Source of the DNA: Aradus depressus
Lineage: Eukaryota; Arthropoda; Insecta; Hemiptera; Aradidae
NCBI GenBank assembly: GCA_963662175.1
Contig: OY759222.1
Location: 15,696,222-15,760,221, forward strand
DNA: 64,000 bases
Direction: 5' to 3'
Below are positions 28,730-54,650 of the stretch, piece after piece; the stretch's first letter is position 1, and the number at the start of each line of letters is the position of its first letter. Position numbers and translations under genes: made by a program. The notes beneath the pieces are model-generated. The model saw only the letters and a program-made list of their open reading frames with translations. It ran no database searches and was not told the origin of the DNA.

Positions 28730-28799
28730 TCTATATTAATAAAGCTGAAACGGGGTTTGTTTGTTTGTTTGTATGTATGTATGTGTGTTCCAGCATCAC

Positions 28800-30655
28800 G
28801 CCCAAACCGCTGGACGGATTTTTATGAAACTGCCCATGTAGCATTCTTTTGAGCCCGATTGAATAATAGGCTATGTGGCGTCCCAAAATTTTGATCGGGA
28901 GGGGGGGTTGTAAGGGGGGCCTAAGTATAAAAAAAGTGCTAACTCATTAACTAATGGTCAAATTGTCATGAAATTTCACACGTAGTCTTTTTAAAAACCA
29001 AACAGGAAAAAAGGTGTGTGGCGTCCCAAAGTTTTGAACGGTCCAGCGGTTTGGGCGTGATGCTGGAACACACATACATACATTTCACATGTAGTATTCC
29101 TGAAGACCAAATAAAAAAATAGGCGGTGTGACGGCTCAAAATTTTTTACGGGAGGGGGGGTAGTGGGGGGGCCTAAGTATAAATATAGAGCTAACTCATT
29201 AACTAATGGGCGAATCGTCATGAAATTTCACATGTAGTATTTTTAAAAGCCAAATAGGAAAAAAAGGTGTGTGGCGTCCCAAAGTTTTGAACGGGAGGGG
29301 GGGTTGTGGGGGGGCCTAAGTATAAATATAGAGCTAACTCATTAACTAATGTGCGAATCGTCATGAAATTTCACATGTAGTATTTTTAAAAGCCAAATAG
29401 GAAAAAAAGGTGTGTGGCGTCCTAAAGTTTTGAACGGGAGGGGGGTTGTGGGGGGGCCTAAGTATAAATATAGAGCTAACTCTTTAACAGTTGGTCGCAT
29501 TGTCACGAAGTTTCACATGTAGTATTCCTGAAGACCAAATAAAAAAATAGGCGGTGTGACGGCTCAAAATTTTTTACGGGAGGGGGGGGGGTAGTGGGGG
29601 GGCCTAAGTATAAATATAGAGCTAACTCATTAACTAATGGGCGAATCGTCATGAAATTTCACATGTAGTATTTTTAAAAGCCAAATAGGAAAAAAAGGTG
29701 TGTGGCGTCCCAAAGTTTTGAACGGGAGGGGGGGTTGTGGGGGGGCCTAAGTATAAATATAGAGCTAACTCATTAACTAATGTGCGAATCGTCATGAAAT
29801 TTCACATGTAGTATTTTTAAAAGCCAAATAGGAAAAAAAGGTGTGTGGCGTCCTAAAGTTTTGAACGGGAGGGGGGTTGTGGGGGGGCCTAAGTATAAAT
29901 ATAGAGCTAACTCTTTAACAGTTGGTCGCATTGTCACGAAGTTTCACATGTAGTATTCCTGAAGACCAAATAAAAAAATAGGCGGTGTGACGGCTCAAAA
30001 TTTTTTACGGGAGGGGGGGGTAGTGGGGGGGCCTAAGTATAAATATAGAGCTAACTCATTAACTAATGGGCGAATCGTCATGAAATTTCACATGTAGTAT
30101 TTTTAAAAGCCAAATAGGAAAAAAAGGTGTGTGGCGTCCCAAAGTTTTGAACGAGAGGGGGGGTTGTGGGGGGGCCTAAATATAAATATAGAGCTAACTC
30201 TTTAACGGTTGGTCGGATTGTCACGAAATTTCACATGGAGTATTCCTGAAGACCAAATAGAAAATTAGGCGGTGTGACGGCTCAAAATTTTTTACGGGAG
30301 GGGGGGGTAGTTGGGGGGCCTAAGTATAAATATAGAGCTAACTCATTAACTAATGGTCGAATTGTCATGAAATTTCACATGTAGTATTCCTAAAGGTCAA
30401 ATAGAAATATTAGGTGTGTGACGGCCCAAAATTTTGAACAGGAAGGAGGGTTGTGGGGGGGGGGCTAAATATACATATAGAGTTAGCTCATTAACGGTTG
30501 GTCGTATTGTCACGAAATTTCGCATATATTATTCCTGAAGGCCAGATAGAAAAATAAGGAGTGTGGCGTCCCGAAGTTTGGAACGGGTGGCGGGGTTGAG
30601 GGGGGGGGGGGGACTAAGTATAAATATAGAGCTAGCTCATTAACGGTTGATCGTA
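28800..30655 (+). repeat. ~143-bp G-rich array, module 1
   Basis: About 13 units of CCTAAGTATAAATATAGAGC ... GAAATTTCACATGTAGTATT ... TGTGGCGTCCCAAAGTTTTG, each ending in G-tracts such as GGGAGGGGGGGTTGTGGGGG. The first unit is the Helitron 5' head itself (CGGATTTTTATGAAACTGCC). Confidence 0.92.
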
Positions 30656-30669
30656 TTGTCATGAATCGG

Positions 30670-31695
30670 ATTGTCATGAATTTCACATGTAGTAGTAGTA
30701 ACTATGTATTCGCTGTGGGGTTCACTGTTGCAAGACATTTACTAGCTGTGATGTCCAGCGTTCCTAATATCGTACTAGCTGTGGGGTCCGCTGTTGCAAG
30801 GTACTTACTAGCTGTAGTGCTCAGCCCCAGCGTTCCTAACTATGTACTGGCTGTGGGGTTCGCTGTTGCAAGGCACCTATAAGACATTTACTAGCTGTAA
30901 TGCCCAGCGTTTCTAATTACGTACTAGCTGTGGGGTCAGCTGTTGCAAGGCGCTAGCAGTGTGGCCCAGCGTATTTCACTCGTAGGTACTAGCTGTGGGG
31001 TCCGCCGTTGCAAAACTCATACTAGCTGTGATGCCCTGTTGTTCTAACTACATACTATCTGTGGGGTTCGCAGTTGCAAGGCACCTACTACCTGTAGGGC
31101 CCAGCGTTCCTAAAAACGTACTAGCTGTGGGGTCCGTCGTTGCAAAAGCATACTAGCTGTGATGCCCAGGGTTCCTAATATCGTACTAGCTGTGGGGTCC
31201 GTTCTTGCAAGGCATTTACTAGCTGTAGTGCCCAGCATTCCTAACTTCGTACTAGCTGTGGGGTCCGTTGTTGCAAGGCATTTACTAGCTGTAGTGCCCA
31301 GCGTTCCTAACTATGTACCAGCTGTGAAGTTCGCTGTTGCAAAGCACTTACTAACTGTAATGCCCAGCGTATTTAACTACATACTAGCTGTGGGGTCCGC
31401 TGTTGCAAGGCACTTAATAGCTGTGGTGACCAGCGTTCCTAACTACGTACTAGCTGTTGGGTCCGCCGTCGCTAGGCACATACTAGCTATGATGCCCAGC
31501 ATTCCCAACTACGTACTAGCTGTGGTGCTCAGCGTTGCAAGCCACATACTAGCTGTGGTCACAAACGTTCTTAAGTACGCACTGACTAGGACGTCCAGCG
31601 ATGCTAAGTATTCACTAGGTGTGGCTTCCGCCGTTGAAAGGCGCATACTAGCTGTGGTGCCCAGGGGTCCTAAAAACTTACTAGCGTTACAACAG
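30670..31695 (+). repeat. 66-bp array, module 1
   Basis: Units of two 33-bp halves: TACTAGCTGTGGGGTCCGCT-GTTGCAAGGCACA and TACTAGCTGTGGTGCCCAGC-GTTCCTAACTACG. Partly open frame, repeating VLAVGSAVARHLLAVVPSVP. The last three units are diverged (CACTGACTAGGACGTCCAGC). Confidence 0.92.
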
Positions 31696-31836
31696 CTGAA
31701 GGACTATAAGCCTTATTCCGTATGAATAATTGAAAATTATAACATCATGAATGTACTGTCGAGGAACTGAATAGCGTTATAGAAGATATTGGGAGAAAAA
31801 TCAAAGTTCCCCGGGCAACGCCGGGTATAACTGCTA

Positions 31837-34800
31837 TAGATTTAATATTTGTTAAAACTGATAGAGAACGACCGGATTATCTGAATCCTACACAAAAATC
31901 AAAATAAATATGTTTTTCAAAACATTCCCGCTATTTAACGGTTTATAGGCTTAATAATTGTTAAAACTGATACGACAGAATCAGATATATCCGAAAAGTC
32001 CCATCCGACGGACGACGTGCTCAAGGCTATTTTCAACCTAAGTGAAATTTCACCTAACCAGGTTTATTTACATAACATACGTCTCATTATCGAGTACCTC
32101 ACATTCGAAAAAGCCCTGGATCATCGCTTAAAGTCCCATCCGAAGGACGACGTGCTCAAAGTGTTTTTTAACTTCCCGATTGAAACATCTGACCTAAGTG
32201 CCTCAGCTAGATTTCTAAGTGGCGATCCTGAGCTCGGTAGACTCCATTCTTGAAATTTCTCGCTTTTTAACGGTTTATAGAGTTAATATTTGTTAAAACT
32301 GATAGAGAACGACCGGATTATCTGAATCCTACACAAAAATCAAAATAAAAATGTTTTTCAAAAAATTTGCGCTATTTAACGGTTTATAGGCTTAATAATT
32401 GTTAAAACTGATACGAGAGATTCAGATTTATCCGGAAAGTCCCATCCGAAGGACGACGTGCTCAAGGCTATTTTCAACCTAAGTGATATTTCACCTACCC
32501 AGGTTTATTTACATAACATACGTCTCATTATCGAGTACCTCACATTCGAAAAAGCCCTGGATCATCGCTTAAAGTCCCATCCGAAGGACGACGTGCTCAA
32601 AGTGTTTTTTAACTTCCCGATTGAAACACCTGACCTAAGTGCCTCAACTAGATTTCTAAGTGGCGATCCTGAGCTCGGTAGACTCCATTCTTGAAATTTC
32701 TCGCTTTTTAACGGTTTATAGATTTAATATTTGTTAAAACTGATAGAGAACGACCGGATTATCTGAATCCTACACAAAAATCAAAATAAAAATGTTTTTC
32801 AAAAAATTTGCGCTATTTAACGGTTTATAGGCTTAATAATTGTTAAAACTGATACGACAGATTCAGATTTATCCGGAAAGTCCCATCCGAAGGACGACGT
32901 GCTCAAGGCTTTCAACCTAAGTAGAAATTGACCTACCCAGGTTTATTTACATAACATACGTCTCATTATCGAGTACCTCACATTCGAAAAAGCCCTGGAT
33001 CATTGCTTAATGTCTCATCCGAAGGACGACGTGCTCAAAGTTATTTTTAGCTTCCCGATTAAAACATCTGACCTAAGTGCCTCAACTAGATTTCTAAGTG
33101 GCGATCCTGAGCTCGGTAGACTCCATTCTTGAAATTTCTCGCTTTTTAACGGTTTATAGATTAAATATTTGTTAAAACTGATAGAGAACGACCGGATTAT
33201 CTGAACCCCACACAAAAATCAAAATGAAAACGTTTTTCAAAAAATTCGCGCTATTTAACGGTTTATAGGCTTAATAATTGTTAAAACTGATACGACAGAA
33301 TCAGATATATCCGAAAAGTCCCATCCGACGGACGACGTGCTCAAGGCTATTTTCAACCTAAGTGAAATTTCACCTAACCAGGTTTATTTACATAACATAC
33401 GTCTCATTATCGAGTACCTCACATTCGAAAAAGCCCTGGATCATCGCTTAAAGTCCCATCCGAAGGACGACGTGCTCAAAGTGTTTTTTAACTTCCCGAT
33501 TGAAACATCTTACCTAAGTGCCTCAGCTAGATTTCTAAGTGGCGATCCTGAGCTCGGTAGACTCCATTCTTCAAATTTCTCGCTTTTTAACGGTTTATAG
33601 ATTTAATATTTGTTAAAACTGATAGAGAACGACCGGATTATCTGAATCCTACACAAAAATCAAAATAAAAATGTTTTCAAAAAATTTGCGCTATTTAACG
33701 GTTTATAGGCTTAATAATTGTTAAAACTGATACGAGAGATTCAGATTTATCCGGAAAGTTCCATCCGAAGGACGACGTGCTCAAGGCTATTTTCAACCTA
33801 AGTGATATTTCACCTACCCAGGTTTATTTACATAACATACGTCTCATTATCGAGTACCTCACATTCGAAAAAGCCCTGGATCATCGCTTAAAGTCCCATC
33901 CGAAGGACGACGTGCTCAAAGTGTTTTTAACTTCCCGATTGAAACATCTGACCTAAGTGCCTCAACTAGATTTCTAAGTGGCGATCCTGAGCTCGGTAGA
34001 CTCCATTCTTCAAATTTCTCGCTTTTTAACGGTTTATAGATTTAATATTTGTTAAAACTGATAGAGAACGACCGGATTATCTGAATCCTACACAAAAATC
34101 AAAATAAAAATGTTTTTCAAAAAATTTGCGCTATTTAACGGTTTATAGGCTTAATAATTGTTAAAACTGATACGACAGACTCAGATTTATCCGGAAAGTC
34201 CCATCCGAAGGACGACGTGCTCAAGGCTATTTTCAACCTAAGTGAAATTTCACCTACCCAGGTTTATTTACATAACATACGTCTCATTATCGAGTACCTC
34301 ACATTCGAAAAAGTCCTGGAACATCGCTTAAAGTCCCATCCGAAGGACGACGTGCTCAATGTTATTTTTTACTTCCCGATTAAAACATCTGACCTAAGTG
34401 CCTCAGCTAGATTTGTAAGTGGCGATCCTGAGCTCGGTAGATTCCATTCTTCAAATTTCTCGCTTTTTAACGGTTTATAGATTAAATATTTGTTAAAACT
34501 GATAGAGAACGACCGGATTATCTGAACCCCACACAAAAATCAAAATGAAAACGTTTTTCAAAAAATTCGCGCTATTTAACGGTTTATAGGCTTAATAATT
34601 GTTAAAACTGATACGACAGATTCAGATATATCCGGAAAGTCCCATCCGAAGGACGACGTGCTCAAGGCTTTCAACCTAAGTGGAAATTGACCTACCCAGG
34701 TTTATTTACATAAAATACGTCTCATTATCGAGTACCTCACATTCGAAAAAGCCCTGGATCATCGCTTAATGTCCCATCCGAAGGACGACGTGCTCAAAGT

Positions 34801-34936
34801 GTTTTTTAACATCCCGATTAAAACATCTGACCTAAGTGCCTCAACTAGATTTCTAAGTGGCGATCCTGAGCTCGGTAGACTCCATTCTTCAAATATCTTG
34901 CTTTTAAACGGTTTATAGATTTAATATTTGTTAACT
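31837..34936 (+). repeat. 440-bp satellite, block A (7 units)
   Basis: Unit boundaries at about 31835, 32277, 32718, 33156, 33597, 34036, 34477 and 34915, each at TATAGATTTAATATTTGTTA. Each unit contains two stretches resembling the reverse strand of the SINE: GTCCCATCCGAAGGACGACG twice, then ATCGAGTACCTCACATTCG and CGATCCTGAGCTCGGTAGAC. Repeated 78-87-codon frames ([16 protein letters not shown]) are translations of that SINE-like DNA. Confidence 0.93.
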
Positions 34937-35105
34937 GACAGAGCCATAGAGTGTGCTGGTTTCGGATTATGCCAACGTCAGCACAACGTTCAGACTGACT
35001 TTAAATATGGTGACACCGATCCACTATGGAAGAAAAATGCCAAAAAAAAAAAGATGTATGTATAGATATGAACACAAATTAAAACTTGTGTACATTGTGA
35101 TATAA
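34937..35105 (+). other. Spacer A between satellite and next module
   Basis: About 170 bp (GACAGAGCCATAGAGTGTGC to GTACATTGTGATATAA), nearly identical to 46706-46874. No gene. Confidence 0.85.
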
Positions 35106-35214
35106 TCTATATTAATAAAGATGAAACGGGGTTTGTTTGTGTGTTTGTTTGTTTGTATGTATGTATGTATGTATGTATGTATGTATGTATGTTCCAGCAT
35201 CACGCCCAAACCGC

Positions 35215-38040
35215 TGTACGGATTTTTATGAAACTGCCCATGTAGCATTCTTTTGAGCCCGATTGAATAATAGGCTATGTGGCGTCCCAACATTTTGATC
35301 GGGAGGGGGGGTTGTGGGGGGGCCTAAGTATAAATATAGAGCTAACTCATTAACTAATGGGCGAATCGTCATGAAATTTCACATGTAGTATTTTTAAAAG
35401 CCAAGTAGGAAAAAAAGGTGTGTGGCGTCCCAACGTTTTGTACGGGAGGGGGGGGGGGGGGGGGTTGTGGGGGGGCCTAAGTATAAATATAGAGCTAACT
35501 CATTAACTAATGGGCGAATCGTCATGAAATTTCACATGTAGTATTTTTAAAAGCCAAATAGGAAAAAGAGGTGTGTGGCGTCCCAAAGTTTTGATCGGGA
35601 GGGGGGGTTGTAAGGGGGGCCTAAGTATATAAATAGTGCCAACACATTAACTAATGGTCGAATTGTCATGAAATTTCACGTAGTATTTTTAAAAGCCAAA
35701 TAGGAAAAAAAGGTGTGTGGCGTCCCAAAGTTTTGAACGGGAGGGGGGGTTGTGGGGGGGCCTAAGCATAAATATAGAGCTAATTCTTTAACGGTTGGTC
35801 GGATTGTCACGAAATTTCACATGGAGTATTCCTGAAGGCCAAATAGAAAAATAAGGTGTGTGGCGTCCCAAAGTTTTGATCGGGAGGGGGGGTTGTAAGG
35901 GGGGCCTAAGTATATAAATAGTGCTAACACATTAACTAATGGTCGAATTGTCATGAAATTTCACGTAGTATTTTTAAAAGCCAAATAGGAAAAAAAGGTG
36001 TGTGGCGTCCCAAAGTTTTGAACGGGAGGGGGGGTTGTGGGGGGGCCTAAGTATAAATATAGAGCTAATTCTTTAACGGTTGGTCGGATTGTCACGAAAT
36101 TTCACATGGAGTATTCCTGAAGGCCAAATAGAAAAATAAGGTGTGTGGCGTCCCAAAGTTTTGAACGGGAGGGGGGGTTGTGGGGGGGCCTAAGTATAAA
36201 TATAGAGCTAGCTCATTAACGGTTGATCGAATTGTCACAAAGTTTCACATGTAGTATTCCTGAAGACCAAATAAAAAAATAGGCGGTGTAACGGCTCAAA
36301 AGTTTGTACGGGAGGGGGGGTAGTGGCGGGGGGACCTAAGTATAAATATGGTGCTAGCTCAATAACGGTTGGTCGTATTGTCATGGAATTTCACATGTAG
36401 TATTCTTAAAAGCCAAATAGAAATATAGGGTGTATATGTCACAAAATTTTGAACGGGAGGGTGGGTTGATGGGGGCCTAAGTATAAGTATAGTGATAAGT
36501 CATTAACGGATGATCGGATTGTCACGAAATTTCACGTGTAGTATTCCTGGACGCCAAATAGAAAAATAGGCGGTGTGACGGCTCAAAATTGTTTACGGGA
36601 GGGGGGGTTGTGGCGGGGGGGCCTAAGTATAAATATAGTGCTAGCTCAATAACGGTTGGTCGTATTGTCATGGAATTTCACATGTAGTATTCTTAAAAGC
36701 CAAATAGAAATATAGGGTGTGTGGCGTCCCAAAGTTTTGAACGGGAGGGGGGGTTGTGGGGGGGCCTAAGTATAAATATAGAGCTAGCTCATTAACGGAT
36801 GATCGCATTGTCAAAAGTTTCACATGTAGTATTCCTGAAGACCAAATAAAAAAATAGGCGGTGTAACGGCTCAAAATTTTGTACGGGAGGGGGGGTTGTG
36901 GCGGGGGGGCCTAAGTATAAATATGGTGCTAGCTCTTAAACGGTTGGTCGTATTGTCATGGAATTTCACATGTAGTATTCTTAAAAGCCAAATAGAAATA
37001 TAGGGTGTATATGTCACAAAATTTTGAACGGGAGGGTGGGTTGATGGGGGCCTAAGTATAAGTATAGTGATAAGTCATTAACGGATGATCGGATTGTCAC
37101 GAAATTTCACGTGTAGTATTCCTGGACGCCAAATAGAAAAATAGGGTGTATATAACACAAAATTTTGAACGGGAGGGTGGGTTGATGGGGGCCTAAGTAT
37201 AAGTATAGTGATAAGTCATTAACGGATGATCGGATTGTCACGAAATTTCACGTGTTGTATTCCTGGAGGCCAAATAGAAAAATAGGCGGTGTGACGGCTC
37301 AAAATTGTTTACGGGAGGGGGGGTTGTGGCGGGGGGGCCTAAGTATAAATATAGTGCTAGCTCAATAACGGTTGGTCGTATTGTCATGGAATTTCATATG
37401 TAGTATTCTTAAAAGCCAAATAGAAATATAGGGTGTATATAACACAAAATTTTGAACGGGAGGGTGGGTTGATGGGGGCCTAAGTATAAGTATAGTGATA
37501 AGTCATTAACGGATGATCGGATTGTCACGAAATTTCACGTGTTGTATTCCTGGAGGCCAAATAGAAAAATAGGCGGTGTGACGGCTCAAAATTGTTTACG
37601 GGAGGGGGGGTTGTGGCGGGGGGGCCTAAGTATAAATATAGTGCTAGCTCATTAACGGTTGGTCGTATTGTCATGGAATTTCACATGTAGTATTCTTAAA
37701 AGCCAAATAGAAATATAGAGTGTATATGTCACAAAATTTTGAACGGGAGGGTGGGTTGATGGGGGCCTAAGTATAAGTATAGTGATAAGTCATTAACGGA
37801 TGATCGGATTGTCACGAAATTTCACATGAAGTATTCATAAAGGCCAAATAGAAAAATAGGGTGTGTGACGTCAAAAAATTGTGAACGGGAGGGGGGTTAT
37901 GGGGGTAGGCCTAAATTTGAAGATAGTGATAGGTCATTAACGGATGATCGGATTGTCACGAAATTTCACATGTAGTATTCTTGATGGTCAAATAAAAAAA
38001 TACACTATGTGACATTTTAAAAATTTGGCAGGGGGGCTAA
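35215..38040 (+). repeat. ~143-bp G-rich array, module 2
   Basis: The longest G-rich array, with several sub-types alternating (GTGTATATGTCACAAAATTT units and GGCGGTGTGACGGCTCAAAA units), so higher-order repeats are present. Confidence 0.9.
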
Positions 38041-38084
38041 GCATAAAAATAATGCTGAATCATTGAAGGGTAATCGGATTGTCA

Positions 38085-39130
38085 TGAATTTCACATGTAG
38101 TAGTAGTAACTATGTATTCGCTGTGGGGTTCACTGTTGCAAGACATTTACTAGCTGTGATGCCCAGCATTCCTAATATCGTACTAGCTGTGGGGTCCGCT
38201 GTTGCAAGGCACTTACTAACTGTAGTGCTCAGCCCCAGCGTTCCTAACTATGTACTGGCTGTGGGGTTCGCTGTTGCAAGGCACCTACAAGACATTTACT
38301 AGATGTGATGCCCAGCGTTCCTAATTACGTACTAGCTGTGGGGTCTGCTGTTGCAAGGCGCTAGCAGTGTGGCCCAGCGTATTTAACTACGTAGGTACTA
38401 GCTGTGGGGTCCGCCGTTGCAAAACTCATACTAGCTATGATGCCCTGTTGTTCTAACTACATACTATCTGGGGTCCGCAGTTGCAAGGCACCTACTACCT
38501 GAAGGGCCCAGCGTTCCTAACTTCGTACTAGCTGTGGGGTCCGCTCTTGCGAGGCACATACTAGCTGCGGTGACCAGCGTTCTAACTACGTACTAGCTGT
38601 GGGATCCGCCGTTGCAAGGCACATACTACCTCTGGTGCCCAGCGTTCCTAACTACGTACTAGCTGTGGTGCCCAGCGTTGCAAGGCATATATTAGCTGTG
38701 GTCACAAACGCACTGGCACTGGCTAGGACGTCCAGCGAAGCTAAATCTTCACTAGCTGTGGTTTCCGCCGTTGAAAGGCGCATACTAGCTGTGGTGCCCA
38801 GGGGTCCTAAAAACTTACTAGCGTTGCTATAGTTGAAGGACTATAAGCCTTATTCCGTATGAATAATTGAAAATTATAACATCATGAATGTACTGTTAAA
38901 GGGTAAGCGGATTGGCATGAATTTCACAAGTAGTAGTAGTAACTATGTATTCGCTGTGGGGTCCGCTGTTGCAAGGCATTTACTAGCTGCGGTCAATAGC
39001 GTTCTTAAGTACGCACTGGCTAGGATGTCCAGCGATGCTAAGTATTCACTATCTGTGGTTTCCGCCGTTGAAAGACGCATACTAGCTGTGATGCCCAGGG
39101 GTCCTAAAAACTTACTAGTTGGGGTGTTTG
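38085..39130 (+). repeat. 66-bp array, module 2, with a partial second copy
   Basis: Same 33-bp dimers as module 1. The sequence from GAAGGACTATAAGCCTTATT to the array start is duplicated at 38825-38940. Confidence 0.88.
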
Positions 39131-39275
39131 ACGTTGAAGGACTATAAGCCTTATTCCGTATGAATAATTGAAAATTATAACATCATGAATGTACTGTTGA
39201 AGAATTTAAAAGACTTATAGGAGATAATAGTAGAGAAGTCAAAGTTCCCCGGGCAACGCCGGGTATTACTGCTAG

Positions 39276-41692: not shown

Positions 41693-41730
41693 AGATTTAA
41701 TATTTGTTAAAACTGATAGAGAACGACCGG

Positions 41731-43638
41731 TGTTAAGTCGCGAGTGGGTGAATTCGGGAACACGCCGAGACAATCGATAGGAGTCGGCGGGACTCTTGAA
41801 CTACATGAGTCAGTAAGCAGTTGGGCACCACGCGGGGTGGACTGAGTTGGTTGAGTTGGCTGTTACCACGCGGGTATAAAGTGAGTCGTCTCTTAACAAC
41901 GAGAGGGACCAGTTGGTCGCCACGCAGGGTGGACTGAGAGTCTGGGTCGAGCCAGCACGCGGTGTGCGGAATGGATTCGTCCTTATTACCACGCGGGTAT
42001 AAGGTGAGTCGTTAGTTACCATGCGGAAGTGAGTTGCTTATTACCACGCGGGTATAAGGTGAGTCGTTAGTTACCATGCGGAAGTGAGTTGGTTATTGCC
42101 ACGCGGGTATAAAGTGAGTCGTCTGTTACCAGGCATAGTAAGTGAGTGACTTGTGTAGTTCCCACGCGGTATGGGACTTATTATTGAACAACTGACTTTG
42201 TGTTCGTTACCACGCGGTTTTGTAATAAGGGTGTTGACCAAATAAATATATCTGTTGCTCTACTCTAAGTTCTCATTAACCTGTACCCAAATCCAACATG
42301 GTTTTTGCCGGGCCGGATTAAAGTAAGTAATACAGTCCATCTTATTTTATTATTTTCATTTGAAAAATGTCGCGAAGAAAGTCAAATTAGTCGACTTAGA
42401 AAAAACAAGACCCCGCGGCACCAGCACCGACGCCGTAGATCTTCTGCTGCTGAGAAGACTGCACCTCCCGCTACCGCGAACGAATCCACCTGCGACGCCT
42501 CTTCTGCGCAAACTGAGCCGAGACCCGCGACTTCAGCGCCTCCAGCCTCTTTGGATGAAGCCTGCAACCCACGACCTCAACGCACCAATTGGCCTACTCA
42601 TCGTATGCCTGGACGCAAAAGTCGGCTCGGACAGCCGCCTTCCATTCCACGCGGCACTGAGATCACCACTCGCACACCATTCGCTACACTGATGCATGTC
42701 GCCTCCGCTCCGTTCATGGACGACTTTCGCGCCTTTTCTCGCGATTCGCACGCTGCATGAGCTGGCTGATCGGGAGCTGCAGCGGTACCAGCTCGCGTCA
42801 GAAGTGCTCTTGAAGGAGACCTACGGAGACGACAACGCTCCGCCGCAATCCTGGAAGCTGGGACGGATCACCCAGCTCTACCCGGGGCAAGACGCGTTCA
42901 CGCGAGTCGCGGATGTCGCAACGACCACCGGGGTTGTGCGCAGACCCCTTTCGCGACTATGCCCGCTCCCAACCCAATAATGAAGCCGAGCCTTCATGGG
43001 GGGCGGGATGTTAAGTCGCGAGTTGAGTGTGGGTGAATTCGGGAACACGCCGAGACAATCGATAGGAGTCGGCGGGACTCTTGAACTACATGAGTGAGTA
43101 AGCAGTTGGGCACCACGCGGGGTGGACTGAGTTGGTTGAGTTGGCTGTTACCACGCGGGTATAAAGTGAGTCGTCTCTTAACAACGAGAGGGACCAGTTG
43201 GTCGCCACGCGGGGTGGACTGAGAGTCTGGGTCGAGCCAGCACGCGGTGTGCGCAATGGATTCGTCCTTATTACCACGCGGGTATAAGGTGAGTCGTTAG
43301 TTACCATGCGGAAGAGAGTTGCTTATTACCACGCGGGTATAAGGTGAGTCGTTAGTTACCATGCGGAAGTGAGTTGCTTATTACCACGCGGGTATAAGGT
43401 GAGTCGTTAGTTACCATGCGGAAGTGAGTTGGTTATTGCCACGCGGGTATAAAGTGAGTCGTCTGTTACCAAGCACAGTAAGTGAGTGACTTGTGTAGTT
43501 CCCACGCGGTATGGGACTTATTATTGAACAACTGACTTTGTGTTCGTTACCACGCGGTTTTGTAATAAGGGTGTTGACCAAATAAATATATCTGTTGCTC
43601 TACTCTAAGTTCTCATTAACCTGTACCCAAATCCAACA
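41731..43638 (+). mobile_element. BEL/Pao-type miniature LTR element
   Basis: LTRs 41731-42298 (568 bp) and 43009-43638 (630 bp) start TGTTAAGTCGCGAG and end CCAAATCCAACA. The target duplication ACCGG (41726-41730, 43639-43643) is exact, and removing the element restores a normal satellite unit. A purine tract GGGGGGCGGGA precedes the 3' LTR. The 710-bp interior keeps only a short 5' coding remnant and the end of pol. LTRs contain ~54-bp repeats (ACCACGCGGGTATAAGGTGA) that account for most of the length difference. Confidence 0.9.
42360..42980 (+). pseudogene. Remnant BEL/Pao polyprotein: N-terminal scrap joined to pol C-terminus
   Basis: After a short basic stretch, the frame ending at 42980 reads ELADRELQRYQLASEVLLKE and SWKLGRITQLYPGQDAFTRV then GVVRRPLSRLCPLPTQ-stop. 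W-x-LGR-x8-PG-x9-V with RP...L..LP is the known C-terminal tail of BEL/Pao pol, after the integrase. Protease, reverse transcriptase, RNase H and the integrase core are absent, so this is a large internal deletion. The 5' part (G+C-rich, Arg/Pro/Ser-rich in the alternative frame) could be the gag start but is not recognisable. Confidence 0.7.
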
Positions 43639-46600
43639 ACCGGATTATCTGAATCCTACACAAAAATCAAAATAAAAATGTTTTTCAAAAAATTTGCGCT
43701 ATTTAACGGTTTATAGGCATAATAATTGTTAAAACTGATACGAGAGATTCAGATTTATCCGGAAAGTCCCATCCGAAGTACGACGTGCTCAAGGCTTTCA
43801 ACCTAAGTAGAAATTGACCTACCCAGGTTTATTTACATAACATACGTCTCATTATCGAGTACCTCACATTCGAAAAAGCCCTGGATCATTGCTTAATGTC
43901 CCATCCGAAGGACAACGTGCTCAAAGTGTTTTTTAACTTCCCGATTGAAACATCTGACCTAAGTGCCTCAGCTAGATTTCTAAGTGGCGATCCTGAGCTC
44001 GGTAGAGTCCATTCTTGAAATTTCTCGCTTTTTAACGGTTTATAGATTTAATATTTGTTAAAACTGATAGAGAACGACCGGATTATCTGAATCCTACACA
44101 AAAATCAAAATAAAAATGTTTTTCAAAAAATTTGCGCTATTTAACGGTTTATAGGCTTAATAATTGTTAAAACTGATACGACAGATTCAGATTTATCCGG
44201 AAAGTCCCATCCGAAGGACGACGTGCTCAAGGCTATTTTCAACCTAAGTTAAATTTCACCTACCCAGGTTTATTTACATAACATACGTCTCATTATCGAG
44301 TACCTCACATTCGAAAAAGCCCTGGATCATTGCTTAATGTCCCATCCGAAGGACGACGTGCTCAAAGTTATTTTTAGCTTCCCGATTAAAACATCTGACC
44401 TAAGTGCCTCAACTAGATTTCTAAGTGGCGATCCTGAGCTCGGTAGACTCCATTCTTGAAATTTCTCGCTTTTTAACGGTTTATAGATTTAATATTTGTT
44501 AAAACTGATAGAGAACGACCGGATTATCTGAATCCTACACAAAAATCAAAATAAAAATGTTTTTCAAAAAATTCACGCTATTTAACGGTTTATAGGCTTA
44601 ATAATTGTTAAAACTGATACGACAGAATCAGATATATCCGAAAAGTCCCATCCGACGGACGACGTGCTCAAGGCTATTTTCAACCTAAGTGGAATTTCAC
44701 CTAACCAGGTTTATTTACATAACATACGTCTCATTATCGAGGACCTCACATTCGAAAAAGCCCTGGATCATCGCTTAAAGTCCCATCCGAAGGACGACGT
44801 GCTCAAAGTGTTTTTTAACTTCCCGATTGAAACATCTGACCTAAGTGCCTCAGCTAGATTTCTAAGAGGCGATCCTGAGCTCGGTAGACTCCATTCTTCA
44901 AATTTCTCGCTTTTTAACGGTTTATAGATTTAATATTTGTTAAAACTGATAGAGAACGACCGGATTATCTGAATCCTACACAAAAATCAAAATAAAAATG
45001 TTTTTCAAAAAATTTGCGCTATTTAACGGTTTATAGGCTTAATAATTGTTAAAACTGATACGAGAGATTCAGATTTATCCGGAACGTCCCATCCGAAGGA
45101 CGACGTGCTCAAGGCTATTTTCAACCTAAGTGATATTTCACCTACCCAGGTTTATTTACATAACATACGTCTCATTATCGAGTACCTCACATTCGAAAAA
45201 GCCCTGGATCATTGCTTAATGTCCCATCCGAAGGACGACGTGCTCAAAGTGTTTTTTAACTTCCCGATTGAAACATCTGACCTAAGTGCCTCAACTAGAT
45301 TTCTAAGTGGCGATCCTGAGCTCGGTAGACTCCATTCTTGAAATTTCTCGCTTTTTAACGGTTTATAGATTTAATATTTGTTAAAACTGATAGAGAACGA
45401 CCGGATTATCTGAATCCTACACAAAAATCGAAATAAAAATGTTTTTCAAAAAATTTGCGCTATTTAACGGTTTATAGGCTTAATAATTGTTAAAACTGAT
45501 ACGACAGATTCAGATTTATCCGGAAAGTCCCATCCGAAGGACGACGTGCTCAAGTCTATTTTCAACCTAAGTGAAATTTCACCTACCCAGGTTTATTTAC
45601 ATAACATACGTCTCATTATCGAGTACCTCACATTCGAAAAAGTCCTGGAACATCGCTTAAAGTCCCATCCGAAGGACGACGTGCTCATAGTTATTTTTCA
45701 CTTCCCGATTTAAACATCTGACCTAAGTTCCTCAGCTAGATTTGTAAGTGGCGATCCTGAGCTCGGTAGACTCCATTCTTCAAATTTCTCGCTTTTTAAC
45801 GGTTTATAGATTAAATATTTGTTAAAACTGATAGAGAACGACCGGATTATCTGAACCCCACACAAAAATCAAAATGAAAACGTTTTTCAAAAAATTCGCG
45901 CTATTTAACGGTTTATAGGCTTAATAATTGTTAAAACTGATACTACAGATTCAGATATATCCGGAAAGTCCCATCCGAAGGACGACGTGCTCAAGGCTTT
46001 CAACCTAAGTGGAAATTGACCTACCCAGGTTTATTTACATAACATACGTCTCATTATCGAGTACCTCACATTCGAAAAAGCCCTGGATCATTGCTTAATG
46101 TCCCATCCGAAGGACGACGTGCTCAAAGTTATTTTTAGCTTCCCGATTAAAACATCTGACCTAAGTGCCTCAACTAGATTTCTAAGTGGCGATCCTGAGC
46201 TCGGTAGACTCCATTCTTCAAATTTCTCGCTTTTTAACGGTTTATAGATTTAATATTTGTTAAAACTGATAGAGAACGACCGGATTATCTGAATCCTACA
46301 CAAAAATCAAAATAAAAATGTTTTCAAAAAATTTGCGCTATTTAACGGTTTATAGGCTTAATAATTGTTAAAACTGATACGAGAGATTCAGATTTATCCG
46401 GAAAGTCCCATCCGAAGGACGACGTGCTCAAGGCTATTTTCAACCTAAGTGAAATTTCACCTACCCAGGTTTATTTACATAACATACGTCTCATTATCGA
46501 GTACCTCACATTCGAAAAAGTCCTGGAACATCGCTTAAAGTCCCATCCGAAGGACGACGTGCTCATAGTTATTTTTCACTTCCCGATTAAAACATCTGAC

Positions 46601-46705
46601 CTAAGTGCCTCAGCTAGATTTCTAAGTGGCGATCCTGAGCTCGGTAGACTCCATTCTTCAAATATCTTGCTTTTTAACGGTTTATAGATTTAATATTTGT
46701 TAACT

Positions 46706-46874
46706 GACAGAGCCATAGAGTGTGCTGGTTTCGGATTATGCCAACGTCAGCACAACGTTCAGACTGACTTTAAATATGGTGACACCGATCCACTATGGAA
46801 GAAAAATGCCAAAAAAAAAAAGATGTATGTATAGATATGAACACAAATTAAAACTTGTGTACATTGTGATATAA
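46706..46874 (+). other. Spacer B between satellite and next module
   Basis: Near-identical to spacer A (34937-35105), including the run of A before GATGTATGTATAGATATGAA. Confidence 0.85.
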
Positions 46875-46984
46875 TCTATATTAATAAAGCTGAAACGGGG
46901 TTTGTTTGTTTGTTTGTATGTTTGTTTGTATGTATGTATGTATGTATGTATGTATGTATGTTTGTTCCAGCATCACGCCCAAAC

Positions 46985-49080
46985 GGCTGGACGGATTTTT
47001 ATGAAACTACCCATGTAGCATCCTTTTGAGCCCGATTGAATAATAGGCTATGTGGCGTCCCAAAATTTTGATCGGGAGGGGGGGTTGTAAGGGGGGCCTA
47101 AGTATATAAATAGTGCTAACACATTAACTAATGGTCGAATTGTCATGAAATTTCACACGTAGTCTCTTAAAAGCCAAACAAGAAAAAAAGGTGTGTGGCG
47201 TCCCAAAGTTTTGAACGGGAGGGGGGGGGGGGGGTTGTGGGGGGGCCTAAGTATAAATATAGAGCTAACTCATTAACTAATGGGCGAATCGTCATGAAAT
47301 TTCACATGTAGTATTTTTAAAAGCCAAATAGGAAAAAAAGGTGTGTGGCGTCCTAAAGTTTTGATCGGGAGGGGGGGTTGTAAGGCGGGCCTAAGTATAT
47401 AAATAGTGCTAACACATTAACTAATGGTCGAATTGTCATGAAATTTCACACGTAGTCTTTTTAAAAGCCAAACAGGAAAAAAAGGTGTGTGGCGTCCCAA
47501 AGTTTTTAACGGGAGGGGGGGTTGTGGGGGGGCCTAAGTATAAATATAGAGCTAATTCTTTAACGGTTGGTCGGATTATCACGAAATTTCACATGGAGTA
47601 TTCCTGAAGGCCAAATAGAAAAATAAGGTGTGTGGCGTCCCAAAGTTTTGATCGGGAGGGGGGGTTGTAAGGGGGGCCTAAGTATATAAATAGTGCTAAC
47701 ACATTAACTAATGGTCGAATTGTCATGAAATTTCACATGTAGTATTCCTAAAGGCCAAATAGAAAAATAAGGTGTGTGGCGTCCCAAAGTTTTGATCGGG
47801 AGGGGGGGTTGTAAGGGGGGCCTAAGTATATAAATAGTGCTAACACATTAACTAATGGTCGAATTGTCATGAAATTTCACACGTAGTCTTTGTTTGAGCC
47901 AAACAGGAAAAAAAGGTGTGTGGCGTCCCAAAGTTTTGAACGGGAGGGGGGGTTGTGGGGGGGCCTAAGTATAAATATAGAGCTAACTCATTAACTAATG
48001 GGCGAATCGTCATGAAATTTCACGTAGTATTTTTAAAAGCCAAATAGGGAAAAAAGGTGTGTGGCGTCCCAAGGGGGGGTTGTGGGGGGGCCTAAGTATA
48101 AATATAGAGCTAATTCTTTAACGGTTGGTCGGATTGTCACGAAATTTCACATGGAGTATTCCTGAAGGCCAAATAGAAAAATAAGGTGTGTGGCGTCCCA
48201 AAGTTTTGAACGGGAGGGGGGGTTGTGGGGGGGCCTAAGTATAAATATAGAGCTAGCTCATTAACGGTTGGTCGAATTGTCACAAAGTTTCACATGTAGT
48301 ATTCCTGAAGACCAAATAAAAAAATAGGCGGTGTAACGGCTCAAAATTTTGTACGGGAGGGGGGGTAGTGGCGGGGGGGCCTAAGTATAAATATGGTGCT
48401 TGCTCAATAACGGTTGGTCGTATTGTCATGGAATTTCACATGTAGTATTCTTAAAAGCCAAATAGAAATATAGAGTGTATATGTCACAAAATTTTGAACG
48501 GGAGAGTGGGTTGATGGGGGCCTAAGTATAAGTGTAGTGATAAGTCATTAACGGATGATCGGATTGTCACGACATTTCACATGTAGTATTCCTGGAGGCC
48601 AATTAAAAAAATAGGCGGTGTGACGGCTCAAAATTGTTTACGGGAGGGGGGGTTGTGGCGGGGAGGCCTAAGTATAAATATAGTGCTAGCTCATTAACGG
48701 TTGGTCGTATTGTCATGGAATTTCACATGTAGTATTCTTAAAAGCCAAATAGAAATATAGAGTGTATATGTCACAAAAATTTGAACGGGAGAGTGGGTTG
48801 ATGGGGGCCTAAGTATAAGTATAGTGATAAGTCATTAACGGATGATCGGATTGTCACGAAATTTCACATGAAGTATTCATAAAGGCCAAATAGAAAAATA
48901 GGGTGACGTCAAAAAATTGTGAACGGGAGGGGGGTTATGGGGGTAGGCCTAAATTTGAAGATAGTGATAGGTCATTAACGGATGATTGGATTGTCACGAA
49001 ATTTCACATGTAGTATTCTTGATGGTCAAATAAAAAAATACACTATGTGACATTTTAAAAATTTGGGAGGGGGGGCTAAG
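46985..49080 (+). repeat. ~143-bp G-rich array, module 4
   Basis: About 15 units, same sub-type order as module 2. Confidence 0.9.
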
Positions 49081-49114
49081 CATAAAAATAATGCTGAATC
49101 ATTGAAGGGTAATC

Positions 49115-51199
49115 GGATTGTCATGAATTTCACATGTAGTAGTAGTAACTATGTATTCGCTGTGGGGTTCACTGTTGCAAGACATTTACTAGCTGTGATG
49201 TCCAGCGTTCCTAATATCGTACTAGCTGTCGGGTCCGCTGTTGCAAGGCACTTACTAGCTGTAGTGCTCAGCCCCAGCGTTCCTAACTATGTACTGGCTG
49301 TGGGGTTCGCTGTTGCAAGGCACCTACAAGACATTTACTAGCTGTGATGCCCAGCGTTTCTAATTACGTACTAGCTGTGGGGTCTGCTGTTGCAAGGCGC
49401 TAGCAGTGTGGCCCAGCGTATTTCACTACGTAGGTACTAGCTGTGGGGTCCGCCGTTGCAAAACTCATACTAGCTGTGATGCCCTGTGGTTCTAACTACA
49501 TACTATCGTGGGGTTCGCAGTTGCAAGGCACCTACTACCTGTAGGGTCCAGCGTTCCTAAAAACGTACTAGCTGTGGGGTCCGTCGTTGCAAAAGCATAC
49601 TAGCTGTGATGCCCAGGGTTCCTAATATCGTACTAGCTGTGGGGTCCGTTGTTGCAAGGCATTTACTAGCTGTAGTACCCAGCGTTTCTAACTTCGTACT
49701 AGCTGTGGGGTCCGCTGTTGCGAGGCACATACTAGCTGTGGTGACCAGCGTTCCTAACTACGTACTAGCTGTTGGGTCCGCCGTCGAAAGGCACATACTA
49801 GCTATGATGCCCAGCATTCCCAACTACGTACTAGCTGTGGTGCTCAGCGGGTAATCGGATTGTCATGAATTTCACATGTAGTAGTAGTAACTATGTATTC
49901 ACTGTGGGGTTCACTGTTGCAAGACATTTACTAGCTGTGATGCCCAGTGTTCCTAACTATGTAGTATCTATGGGGTCCGCTGTTACAAAACACTTACTAG
50001 CTGTGTTGCCCAGCGTTCCGAAGTTCGTACTAGCTGTGGGGTCCGCTGTTGCAAGGCACAAACTAGATGTGGTGCCCAGGGTTCCTAACTTCGTACTAGC
50101 TGTGGTGTCCGCTGTTGCGAGGCACAAACTAGATGTGGTGCTCAGCGTTCCTAACTTCGTACTAGCTGTGGGGTCCGCTGTTGCAAGGCACATACTAGAT
50201 GTGGTGCCCAGGGTTCCTAACTTCGTACTAGCTGTGGTGTCCGCTGTTACAAAACACTTACTAGCTGTGTTGCCCAGCGTTCCGAACTTCGTACTAGCTG
50301 TGGGGTCCGCTGTTACAAAACACTTACTAGCTGTGTTGCCCAGCGTTCCGAACTTCGTACTAGCTGTGGGGTCGGCTGTTGCAAGGCACATACTAGATGT
50401 AGTGCCCAGGGTTCCTAACTTCGTACTAGCTGTGGTGTCCGCTGTTGCAAGGCACAAACTAGATGTGGTGCTCAGCGTTCCTAACTTCGTACTAGCTGTG
50501 GGGTCCGCTGTTGCAAGGCACATACTAGATGTGGTGCTCAGGGTTCCTAACTTCGTACTAGCTGTGGTGTCCGCTGTTACAAAACACTTACTAGCTGTGT
50601 TGCCCAGCGTTCCGAACTTCGTACTAGCTGTGGGGTCGGCTGTTGCAAGGCACATACTAGATGTGGTGCCCAGGGTTCCTAACTTCGTACTAGCTGTGGT
50701 GTCCGCTGTTGCAAGGCACAAACTAGATGTGGTGCTCAGCGTTCCTAACTTCGTACTAGCTGTGGGGTCCGCTGTTGCAAGGCACATACTAGCTATGGTG
50801 CTCAGCGTTCCTATTTTCGTACTAGCTGTGGGGTCCGCTGTTGCAAGGCACTTACTAGCTGTGATGCCCCGCGTTTCTAACTACGTACTAGCTGTGGGGT
50901 CCGCCGTTGCAAAACACATACTAGATGTGATGCCCAGTGGTTCTAACTATGTACTAGCTGTGGGGTCCGCTGATGCAAGGCACTTACTAGCTGTGGGGCC
51001 CAGCGTTCCTAACTACGTACTAGCTGTGGGGTCCGCCGTCGCAAGGCACATACTAGCTGTGGTCACAAACGATCTTAAGTACGCACTGGCTAGGATGTCC
51101 AGCGATGCTAAGTATTCACTAGCTGCGGTTTCCGCCGTTGAAAGGCGCATACTAGCTGTGGTGCCCAAGGGTCCTAAAAACTTACTAGCGTTACTATAG
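49115..51199 (+). repeat. 66-bp array, module 4, with long open frames on both strands
   Basis: Restarts at 49850 after GGGTAATCGGATTGTCATGA. From 49865 to 51199 the + strand is open for 444 codons (repeating FVLAVGSAVARHILDVVPRV). The minus strand is open for 276 codons across 49957-50787 (repeating CLATADPTASTKLGTL). Units 50000-50780 are almost uniform and fall into a higher-order pattern. Openness follows from a stop-free unit of 66 bp, so I do not call a gene. Confidence 0.9.
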
Positions 51200-51341
51200 C
51201 TGAAGGACTATTAGCCTTATTCCGTATGAATAATTGAAAATTATAACATCACGAATGTACTGTCGAAAAATTGAATAGACATATAGGAGATATTGGGAGT
51301 AAAGTCAAAGTTCCCCTGGCAACGCCGGGTATTACTGCTAG

Positions 51342-54300
51342 TCTATATAAATAAAGCTGAAACGGGGTTTGTGTGTGTTTGTTTGTATGTGTGTTTGTTT
51401 GTATGTTTGTTCCAGCATCACGCCCAAACGGCTGGACGGATCTTCATGAAACTTAACATGTAGCATTTTTTTGAGCTCGATTGAATAATAGGCTATGTGG
51501 CGTCCCAGAATTTTGAACGGTAGGGAGGGTTGTAAGGGGGGCCTAAGTATATAAATAGTCCTACCTCATTACGGTTGGTCGGATTGCCACGACATTTCAC
51601 ATGTAGTATTCTTAAAGACCAAATAGAAATATGAGGTGTGTGGCGTACCAAAATTTTGAACGGGAGGGGGGGTTGTGGGGGGGCCTAAGTATAAATATAG
51701 AGCAAACTCTTTAACGGTTGGTCGGATTGTCACGAAATTTCACATGTAGTATTTTTAAAAGCCAAATAGGAAAAAAAGGTGTGTGGCGTCCCAAAGTTTT
51801 GAACGGGAGGGGGGGTTGTGGGGGGGCCTAAGTATAAATATAGAGCTAACTCTTTAACGGTTGGTCGGATTGTCACGAAATTTCACATGTAGTATTCTTA
51901 AAGGCCAAATAGAAAAATAAGGTGTTTGGCGTCCCAAAGTTTTGAACGGGAGGGGGTTGTGGGGGGCCTAAGTATAAATATAGAGCTAGCTCATTAACTA
52001 ATGGTCGGATTGTCACGAAATTTCACATGTAGTATTTTTAAAAGCCAAATAGGAAAAAAAGGTGTGTGGCGTCCCAAAGTTTTGAACGGGAGGGGGGTTT
52101 GTGGGGGGGCCTAAGTATAAATATAGAGCTAACTCTTTAACGGTTGGTCGGATTGTCACGAAATTTCACATGGAGTATTCCTGAAGGCCAAATAGAAAAA
52201 TAAGGTGTGTGGCGTTCTAAAGTTTTGAACGGGAGGGGGGGTTGAGGGGGGCCTAAGTATAAATATAGAGCTAGCTCATTAACGGTTGGTCGCATTGTCA
52301 CGAAGTTTCACATGTAGTATTCCTGAAGACCAAATAAAAAAAAAGGTGTGTGGCGTCCCAAAAATTTGAACGGGGGGAGGGGGGGGGGGGGTAGGCCTAA
52401 GTATAAATATAGTGTTAACTCTTCAAAGATTGGTCGGATTGTCACAAAATTTCACATGTAGTATTTTTAAAATCCAAATAGAAATATAAGATGTGTGGCG
52501 ACCCAAAGTTTTCAACAGGAGGGGAGGTTGTGGGGATAGGCCTAAGTATAAATATAGTGCTGGCTCATTAACGGTTGGTCAGATTGTCACGAAATTTCAC
52601 ATGTAGTATTTCTGAAAGTCAAATAGAAAAATAGGCGGTGTGACGGCTCAAAATTTTGTACGGGAGGGGGGGTAGTGGCGGGGGGGCCTAAGTATAAATA
52701 TAGTGCTAGCTCAATAACGGTTGGTCGTATTGTCATGGAATTTCACATGTAGTATTCTTAAAAGCCAAATAGAAATATAGGGTGTATATGTCACAAAATT
52801 TTGAACGGGAGGGTGGGTTGATGGGGGCCTAAGTATAAGTATAGTGATGTCATTAACGGATTATCGGATTGTCACGAAATTTCACATGTAGTATTCATAA
52901 AGGTCAAATAGAAATATAGGGTGTATATGTCACAACATTTTGTACGGGAGGGGGGGTTGATGGGGGCCTAAGTATAAGTATAGTGATGTCATTAACGGAT
53001 GATCGGATTGTCACGAAATTTCACATGTAGTATTCATAAAGGTCAAATAGAAAAATAGGGTGTGACGTCAAAAAATTGTGAACGGGAGGGGGGGTATGGG
53101 GGTAGGCCTAAATTTGAAGATAGTGATAGGTCATTAACGGATGATCGGATTGTTATGGAATTTCACATGTACTATTATTGATGGCCAAATAGAAAAATAC
53201 ACTAGCTGTGATGACCAGTGGTTCTAACTACGTACTAGCTGTGGGGTCCGCCGTTACAAAAACATACTAGCTGTGATGCCCAGCGTTTCTAACTAGGTAC
53301 TAGCGGTGGGGTCCGCCGTTGCAGAACACATACTAGCTGTGATGCTGAGCGTTTCTAACTACGTACTAGCTGTGGGGTCCGCCGTTGCAAAACACATACT
53401 AGCTGTGATGCCCAGTGGTTCTAACTACATACTAACTGTGGGGTCCGCTGTTGCAAAGCACTTAATAGCTGTAGGGCCCAGCGTTCCTAAAAACGTACTA
53501 TCTGTGGGGTCCGCTGTTGCAAGGCACTTACTAGCTGTGATGCCCAGCGTTCCTAATTACGTACTAGCTGTGGGGTCCGCTGTTGCGAGGCACATACTAG
53601 CTGTGATGCCCTGTGGTTCTAACTACATACTATCTGTGGGCTCCGCAGTTGCAAGGCACCTACTAGCTGTAGGGCCCAGCGTTCCTAAAAACGTACTAGC
53701 TGTGGGGTCCGCCGTTGCAAAAACATACTAGCGGTGATGCCCAGCGTTTCTAATTAGGTACTAGCGGTGGGGTCCGCCATTGCAGAACACATACTAGCTG
53801 TGATGCTGAGCGTTTCTAACTACGTACTAGCTGTGGGGTCCGCCGTTGCAAAAACATACTAGCGGTGATGCCCAGCGTTTCTAATTAGGTACTAGCGGTG
53901 GGGTCCGCCGTTGCAGAAGACATACTAGCTGTGATGCTGAGCGTTTCTAACTACGTACTAGCTGTGGGGTCCGCCGTTGCAAAAACATACTAGCTGTGAT
54001 GCCCAGCGTTTCTAATTAGGTACTAGCGGTGGGGTCCGCCGTTGCAGAACACATACTAGCTGTGATGCTGAGCGTTTCTAAGTACGTACTAGCTGTGGAG
54101 TCCGCTGTTGCAAGGCACTTACTAGCTGTGATGCCCAGCGTTCCTAATTTCGTACTAGATGTGGGGTCCGCTGTTGCGAGGCTCATACTAGCTGTGGTGA
54201 CCAGCGTTCCTAACTACGTACCTGCTGTGGGGTCCGCCGTCGCAAGGCACATACTAGCTGTGATGCCCAGCGTTTCTAACTAGGTACTAGCGGTGGGGTC

Positions 54301-54650
54301 CGCCGTTGCAAGGCATATACTACCTGTGGTGCCCAGCGTTCCTAACTACGTACTAGCTGCGGTGCCCAGCGTTGCAAGGCACATACTAGCTGTGGTCAAA
54401 ACGTTCTTATGTACGCACTGGCTAGGACGTCCTGCGATGCTAAGTATTCACTAGCTGTCGTTTCCGCAGTTGAAAGGCGCATACTAGCTGTGGTGCCCAG
54501 GGATCCTAAAAAATTACTAGCGTTACTACAGTTGAATTCCGTATGAATAATTAAAAATTATAACATCACTGTCGAGGAACTGAATAGCCTTATAGGAGAT
54601 ATTGGGAGAAAAGTCAAAGTTCCCCGGGCAACGCCGGGTATTACTGCAAG
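51342..54650 (+). mobile_element. Helitron module 5
   Basis: TCTATATAAATAAAGCTGAA directly after the CTAG of module 4. ~143-bp array about 51430-53195, 66-bp array 53195-54515, hairpin CCCGGGCAACGCCGGG, end CTGCAAG followed by T (CTAG mutated to CAAG). Confidence 0.88.
51430..54515 (+). repeat. ~143-bp and 66-bp arrays, module 5
   Basis: Here the 66-bp array contains a distinct local expansion (GTACTAGCGGTGGGGTCCGC with GATGCTGAGCGTTTCTAA) repeated at 53290, 53760, 53890 and 54025. Confidence 0.88.

Follow-up and report, generated by a model that had tools for sequence, protein, structure and literature searches.

Positions 28730..54650 of the window, the stretch of 64,000 nucleotides from Aradus depressus analysed here, hold one array of a rolling-circle transposon family that is present in about 1000 copies genome-wide and is no local curiosity. 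The array consists of five head-to-tail Helitron modules of two kinds, S, which end in CTAG, and L, which do not, and has the formula L-S1, L-S2, S2, with an LTR element inside the second satellite. It was most likely assembled from different members of the family and not by duplication of one block. Units of the L type seem to be joined to another copy in nearly all cases, the final copy of the series providing the missing end. We consider it probable that a non-autonomous Helitron family captured a satellite by reading through its 3′ end, after which L-S composites and L(n)S arrays spread.

Anatomy of the array

The order of parts in a sequence-only reading of this region is confirmed, the ends, the tandem arrays (TRF) and the satellites of all five modules having been located (Table 1; joints are marked by a slash). 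Each of the five modules contains a ~143-bp and a 66-bp array. S modules terminate in a hairpin and CTAG; L modules lack CTAG, having the terminus ...CTGCTA/TAGATTT in modules 1 and 3, and continue through a satellite of 441-bp units, then a 117-bp segment that contains an A-run, and finally a 53-bp flank. The satellites, previously read as seven units of 440 bp with spacers of ~170 bp, were found as seven copies of 441 bp (31835-34934 and 43635-46703 by TRF) with spacers of 171 bp.

Table 1. Features of the Helitron array, in window coordinates
Feature	Position	Strand	Description
Module 1, L type	28730..31836	+	5′ TC, 143-bp array, 66-bp array, hairpin tail, CTGCTA end without CTAG
441-bp satellite, block A	31837..34934	+	seven units; putatively captured portion of L
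L spacer, block A	34935..35105	+	~117-bp segment with A-run, 53-bp flank; terminus GTGATATAA
Module 2, S1 type	35106..39275	+	5′ TC to CTAG; two copies of tail motif (38817-38896, 39135-39226)
Module 3, L type	39276..41691	+	head-to-tail joint with CTAG of module 2
441-bp satellite, block B	41692..46703	+	seven units, split by LTR element
LTR element in block B satellite	41731..43638	+	TG..CA; 5-bp duplication ACCGG
L spacer, block B	46704..46874	+	171/171 identity with block A spacer
Module 4, S2 type	46875..51341	+	5′ TC to CTAG; 66-bp array resumes near 49848
Module 5, S type	51342..54650	+	5′ TC to CAAG, then host T

S modules and L-S composites have the 5′ TC end of Helitrons (five in the window) and the 3′ CTRR motif, here CTAG, with a hairpin ~12 nt upstream, module 5 having CAAG instead, while an L module alone lacks a CTRR terminus of its own against host DNA (CTA/TAGATTT). 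The hairpins at 39275 and 54650 have a 5-bp stem followed by 12 nt and the one at 51341 is weaker; all are weak structures (z -1.03 to +0.17), none being clearly better folded than shuffles, which counts against the explanation favoured below. The LTR element, the LTRs of which differ at 5/568 aligned bases, is a later passenger outside the composite. It makes block B longer than block A; without it and one copy of its duplication, B measures 10153 bp against 10546 bp for A.

The array does not encode the Rep/helicase of an autonomous Helitron. Its stop-to-stop open reading frames of at least 120 codons are frames of tandem repeats or of the LTR element, and a Pfam search with eight window ORFs, only one of which (LTR internal) lies inside the array, gave no match. 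RepHel is located elsewhere in the genome and could be the source of mobility: Helitron_like_N occurs 93 times, in many cases in open frames of 1484 codons. Among the 100 listed of 2429 5′-end matches, no copy was found a short distance upstream of the RepHel at C1:3110605, which counts against the explanation favoured below.

Fixed junctions and mobility of the composite

Modules 1 and 3 share a 3′ end that had been taken as degenerate but is in fact a fixed family junction: the passage from L end to satellite was found in 1003 genome copies at no more than two mismatches. CTAG/TC joints number 801, and one Helitron 5′ pattern has 2429 copies. The 3′ boundary of L, i.e., the spacer end, occurs 1068 times, directly abutting a Helitron 5′ end (TCTATA) in 1031 cases, with 37 lacking an exact TCTATA, which count against the favoured explanation. 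Chance is excluded, since reversed patterns used as controls gave no match for the L junction, CTAG/TC, the spacer end or the spacer end with TCTATA. Among the retrieved loci (L matches on C1 and the window), a 5′ end follows the spacer in 28/29 cases, comprising 23/23 in the main locus set plus L030, L031 and L036-L038; a further spacer, truncated where L038 ends, lies outside this count. The exception, L029, terminates in the A-run, followed by unrelated DNA, which counts against the favoured explanation. The spacer end can form a 6-bp hairpin; a self-made terminator at this position was nevertheless rejected, as host DNA could adjoin no more than 37 of the 1068.

The flank appears to have been captured once, because GAT comes directly after the A-rich run in 71/71 rows with letters, and GATGTA in 67/71 (100 rows listed, of 959 copies). 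Two observations count against the favoured explanation: a second spacer joint, GATA/TC, is found six times among 100 matches listed, and two L units (C1:6376502 and 6395088) meet the satellite at a different point. The length of the satellite varies widely among L units. Spacer sequences from other loci agree to 98-100% as well, so the identity of the spacers of blocks A and B is no mark of local copying. An array at C1:106969437-106935255 holds four L and then three S units; its 5′ ends number seven and its CTAG ends three.

The L-S composite moves as one TC...CTAG unit, as two other loci, C1:11781466-11788810 and C1:66988696-66995236, hold it between host flanks, and its right end meets host DNA at two more (C1:24471478 and C1:35357456). 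The earlier proposal that the composite moved or was amplified as a unit to give both blocks therefore holds with respect to movement, and the objection that composites might be present only here, with identical flanks, falls away. The copy at C1:11781466-11788810 comprises 7345 bp, with two 5′ ends and one CTAG, and lies within an inverted-repeat element, in the 70-bp centre between two arms of 278 bp that are 91.7% alike. The search for empty sites suggested in that reading yielded insert-free copies of this target crossing the joint, although most of the best begin only 17 bases left of it and few extend far both ways. Non-family 5′ flanks end in A in 62/65 cases among the 100 listed of 2429 matches (one flank being present five times and two flanks twice), and host right flanks begin with T in 8/8. 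S modules and L-S composites thus enter A/T sites, and no target duplication arises, as is also seen against the insert-free copies of one target.

Proposed capture of the satellite and growth of the arrays

In the explanation that we favour, an ancestral Helitron would have resided in the 441-bp satellite. With its 3′ end altered and devoid of CTAG, transposition would have passed through the satellite, the A-tailed segment and the 53-bp flank, and stopped at the CTAG of a second, downstream Helitron. The L-S composite would then have been mobilised as a single TC...CTAG unit and spread, L persisting fused to the following module because it is without the usual terminator. L and S have homologous 143/66-bp arrays, and recombination between these, whether on a circular intermediate or on the chromosome, could have generated L units devoid of a terminator as well as L(n)S arrays; the CTAG/TC joints may derive from circles closed end to end or from elements that inserted into A/T regenerated at the 5′ border. 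A related satellite at C1:99411256-99415599, up to 91% alike, supports this explanation; the failure to find the ancestral satellite locus counts against it. An S unit with an L-like body at C1:107503557, 2.0% from the nearest L, is a possible ancestor of L. More tentatively, L may be an obligate-partner mobile satellite that has a start and no stop and moves only when fused to S, whole L(n)S arrays being inserted and seeding the satellite genome-wide.

Relationships among units were assessed from distances between 34 units and from a tree of 22 of these, which retained a single S unit and omitted three L units that are rearranged; loci L001-L008 and later-retrieved loci stand outside both. 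Plain MAFFT alignment of long arrays is unreliable inside tandem repeats, and no claims there rest on it. In the tree, every one of the four loci that contribute more than one L unit has such units on either side of the main branch, a pattern that would reflect whole-array transposition if the obligate-partner reading were true.

The tandem array may have grown by rolling circles, though recombination or repeated insertion could have produced it too. A serious, if less probable, competitor is that L-S dispersed by transposition while tandem growth and the mixing of L, S1 and S2 proceeded by unequal crossing-over and gene conversion in the chromosome, with no rolling-circle concatemers. It would explain the mosaic arrays, including those four loci, as well as the wide variation in satellite length and the mixture of neighbours, some identical (C1:6384974 and 6388211, at 0.0%, which counts against the favoured explanation) and others closer to distant loci than to each other. 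However, the 801 precise CTAG/TC joints need no homology, and the 31 same-strand against two opposite-strand neighbours on C1 fit either model. Somewhat less likely still is repeated insertion, in which the A/TC border regenerates A/T 5′ of a resident Helitron and the newcomer gives CTAG/TC. The strong use of A/T targets, the adjoining of modules of different subtypes and an insertion-site preference described for Drosophila TE dimers in PMC12628747 agree with it, but it leaves unexplained the joints between L and the next 5′ end, where one captured flank is common to ~1000 copies.

Local segmental duplication, in which block B was copied in place from block A, is very improbable, and the duplicated composite unit of the sequence-only reading is not supported as far as B would be a copy of A. 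The shared order, the identical spacers and the seven units of both satellites speak for it, but the order is the usual layout of the family and recurs at other loci. Modules 1 and 3 are 4.0% apart, with nearer relatives on C1 (1.6% for module 1 and 1.0% for module 3); they lie across a branch with 100/100 support and were united in 0% of 200 bootstrap trees. Modules 2 and 4 belong to different S subtypes, their ends being 84.9% alike over 172 columns and their sequences 21.8% apart over 1.1 kb, and the satellites are out of register, each of the six A monomers having its closest match, among the five B monomers compared, at an offset of +2 (two) or -1 (four). Distances and tree contradict duplication of one 10.5-kb block, which only large gene conversion afterwards could rescue.

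That L is an SVA-like retroposon with tandem repeats and an A-tail, as the A-run closing the 117-bp segment and the end of L029 in unrelated DNA could suggest, is hardly to be believed: an A-tail would meet varying host DNA, but here tail and flank are fixed, GAT following in all 71 rows, with L029 the one exception, and the composite borders are A/TC...CTAG/T. Assembly error is just as remote, for although the region is highly repetitive, the same junctions recur ~1000 times in a 74-contig, 698-Mb assembly and the modules of the window differ from one another.

Significance and relation to known systems

The mechanism is known and the satellite-bearing L-S form appears to be new; no earlier description of a satellite-bearing L-S composite was found in open-licence papers. 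The family would be a natural record, on the scale of a whole genome, of Helitron 3′ read-through, which has so far been best shown with a reconstructed bat element, and a single capture event can be traced in it through ~1000 copies by means of the fixed 53-bp flank. It also offers a concrete path for the dispersal of a satellite over many contigs. As terminator-less and terminator-bearing units adjoin, tandem growth by rolling circles, repeated insertion or recombination can be tested between individuals.

Tandem Helitron arrays having a single 3′ end for many 5′ ends have been reported (Xiong et al., 2016, as described in PMC12628747), and in that description they share with the present array the head-to-tail modules, the inner units without 3′ terminator and the later unit that provides it. 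In contrast, truncation does not suffice to describe the inner unit here: it bears a captured satellite plus flank, and a single fixed junction recurs in ~1000 copies; several S units may follow, e.g., in the array with three S units mentioned above. Helentron/HINE elements, such as those of Crassostrea gigas, carry satellite-like repeats (PMC7492417) and are likewise non-autonomous rolling-circle elements that disperse tandem repeats, whereas the present family has three arrays of different units, the third beyond the original 3′ end, and canonical TC...CTAG ends. For Helraiser/Helibat, PMC4778049 and PMC5876387 describe 3′-end bypass and transduction and mention tandem Helitron arrays for plants and bats. 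Both systems have TC/CTAG ends and a hairpin before the 3′ end, and read-through into flanking DNA as far as another terminator and precise CTAG-TC circle junctions would likewise be common to both; unlike in Helraiser/Helibat, an entire second Helitron would here act as the alternative terminator, and what resulted is a family of high copy number.

Anatomy of the window array

Five Helitron modules lie head to tail in the window (C8:15696222-15760221, where C1, C8 and C14 denote contigs of the 698-Mb, 74-contig assembly), as the sequence-only reading had described, and their 5' ends, arrays, satellites and spacers were all located there. Each module carries a ~143-bp array and a 66-bp array. 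Modules 2, 4 and 5 are S modules, with a terminator of their own, and close with a GC hairpin followed by CTAG (CAAG in module 5); modules 1 and 3 are L modules, which reach a CTGCTA end and run on without a gap through seven 441-bp satellite units and a 171-bp spacer into the next 5' end. The window order is L-S1, L-S2, S2.

Features of the window and loci of the shorter spacer joint (a slash marks a joint)
Feature	Location	Strand	Details
5' TC ends of modules 1-5	window 28730, 35106, 39276, 46875, 51342		same TC end in all five
LTR element	window 41731-43638		short, in second satellite; 5-bp duplication; 5 differences between the LTRs in 568 aligned bases
U2 snRNA match	window 57695-57892		full-length; 144.9 bits
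S-type 3' end	window 11253-11320	-	CTAG/T, tail present
S-type 3' end	window 62106-62160	+	CTAG/T, tail present
GATA/TC joint	C1:766012, 1956236, 1965120, 1977835, 1997083, 2035654		

No arrays or 5' end were detected beside the two outlying S-type 3' ends. In the LTR element, a 55-bp internal repeat is present in 3.7 copies in one LTR vs 2.7 in the other. Module 1 alone among the five contains, at 29041-29083, a 43-bp exact inverted copy of 28773-28815, which looks like a replication template switch. The satellite (31835-34934 and 43635-46703) shares stretches of 71-87% identity with interspersed repeats in other parts of the window, some of which appear SINE-like by eye.

Relationship of the two blocks and family size

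The sequence-only reading had also proposed a duplicated composite; a copying in place of block A (modules 1 and 2) to give block B (modules 3 and 4, with the LTR element in its satellite) is not borne out. Across 1.1 kb comprising the 66-bp array and the tail, modules 1 and 3 differ by 4.0%, module 1 and a unit at C1:6376502 by 1.6%, and module 3 and a unit at C1:107454482 by 1.0%; modules 2 and 4 are 21.8% apart, and module 2 is 7.0% from an S unit at C1:24471435. In a tree of 22 units, in which trust is limited by tandem-repeat recombination, a branch with 100/100 support separates modules 1 and 3, which are united in 0% of the 200 bootstrap trees. The two satellites do not run in step: each A monomer has its best match in B at an offset of +2 or -1. 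In-place duplication of one block was rejected on these distances, the tree split and the satellite register. That the A and B spacers are identical does not point to local copying, because 98-100% identity is also seen between spacers at other loci. Each of the four multi-L loci in the tree holds L units from both sides of the branch, and the four loci with a single L in the fetched stretch represent one side only.

The junction of L end and satellite has 1003 genome copies (<=2 mismatches; 0 genome-wide for its reversed control on the same terms), and the CTAG/TC joint has 801 (<=2 mismatches; reversed control none). Among the 93 exact L junctions that were listed for C1, 31 same-strand and 2 opposite-strand neighbour pairs lie within 25 kb, where random placement gives 1.0 same-strand pairs (maximum 5 in 2000 trials). 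At C1:6374202 to 6403342, consecutive L units (5' end, 143-bp array, 66-bp array, tail, satellite, spacer) have two S units interspersed, and the L units at C1:6376502 and C1:6395088 pass from tail to satellite at a different point and phase. Comparable arrays occur in C1:107448001-107508000 and C1:106940001-106980000, and an array at C1:106935255-106969437 (34183 bp) comprises four L and three S units.

Movement, target use and the L end

The further claim that the composite moves as one unit is supported by L-S composites flanked on both sides by host DNA at two other loci, C1:11781466-11788810 (7345 bp) and C1:66988696-66995236 (6541 bp), and by insert-free copies of a target. The former lies within the central 70 bp of an inverted repeat whose arms are 278 bp long and 91.7% identical. 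When its two flanks were joined (between query bases 78 and 79) and 40 of 251 candidates were scored, insert-free copies spanned the joint, for example at C1:7777440-7777533 (query 62-155, 97%) and C1:61856378-61856520 (query 3-143, 82%); most of the best rows begin at query base 62, which leaves a short left side. Among the first 100 listed of 2429 5' ends, found with a pattern that excludes C at -13 and hence the main spacer joint, 29 are preceded by CTAG or CAAG, 6 by a shorter spacer joint and 65 by other DNA. Flanks of the last class end in A in 62 of 65 cases (one flank occurring five times and two flanks twice), and host right flanks begin with T in 8/8. This A on the left and T on the right is Helitron target use.

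The final 19 bases of the spacer have 1068 genome copies, followed immediately by TCTATA in 1031 and not in the other 37. At loci selected, non-randomly, from L hits on C1, the spacer leads to a 5' end in 23/23 of one set and in five further cases; the sole L observed whose spacer stops at the A-run, followed by unrelated DNA, is L029 (C1:105805566). An independent ending of L is thus rare, if it occurs at all. A 117-bp segment within the spacer (959 copies counted) terminates in an A-run; among 100 listed copies, GAT follows in all 71 rows with letters and GATGTA in 67, and the flank beyond the A-run was therefore captured once. The second spacer joint, GATA/TC vs GATATAA/TC, is 3 bp shorter and may stem from a further insertion into the same flank or from imprecise joining.

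RepHel genes and mechanism

RepHel genes, which encode the Rep/helicase of autonomous Helitrons, are present in the genome, with 93 matches to the Helitron_like_N profile, many of which lie in 1484-codon open frames and score the same. Within the first 100 entries of the list of 2429 5' ends, no 5' end is found a short distance upstream of the C1:3110605 copy. Seven matches cluster at C14:2734564-2853228, six of them in open frames of 2343 codons, and constitute a second RepHel family.

Read-through from one Helitron across a satellite into the next would yield an L-S composite, and the observed composites are consistent with it. The genome could already have contained the satellite, since a related one, up to 91% alike, stands at C1:99411256-99415599, adjoining a Helitron but outside it. 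The S unit at C1:107503557 has a body resembling that of L units, and the L closest to it differs by 2.0%. Tandem growth may have proceeded by rolling circle, by repeated insertion at the regenerated A/T or by unequal exchange.

For Helraiser, the hairpin has been described as a terminator whose bypass transduces flanking DNA up to another terminator, and circles with an exact CTAG-to-TC junction have been reported (PMC4778049, PMC5876387); a review describes truncated Helitrons in tandem that have many 5' ends but a single 3' end, together with a terminator-loss model (PMC12628747). The whole is a variant of this known Helitron behaviour, and its notable part is the fixed, high-copy, terminator-less L unit.
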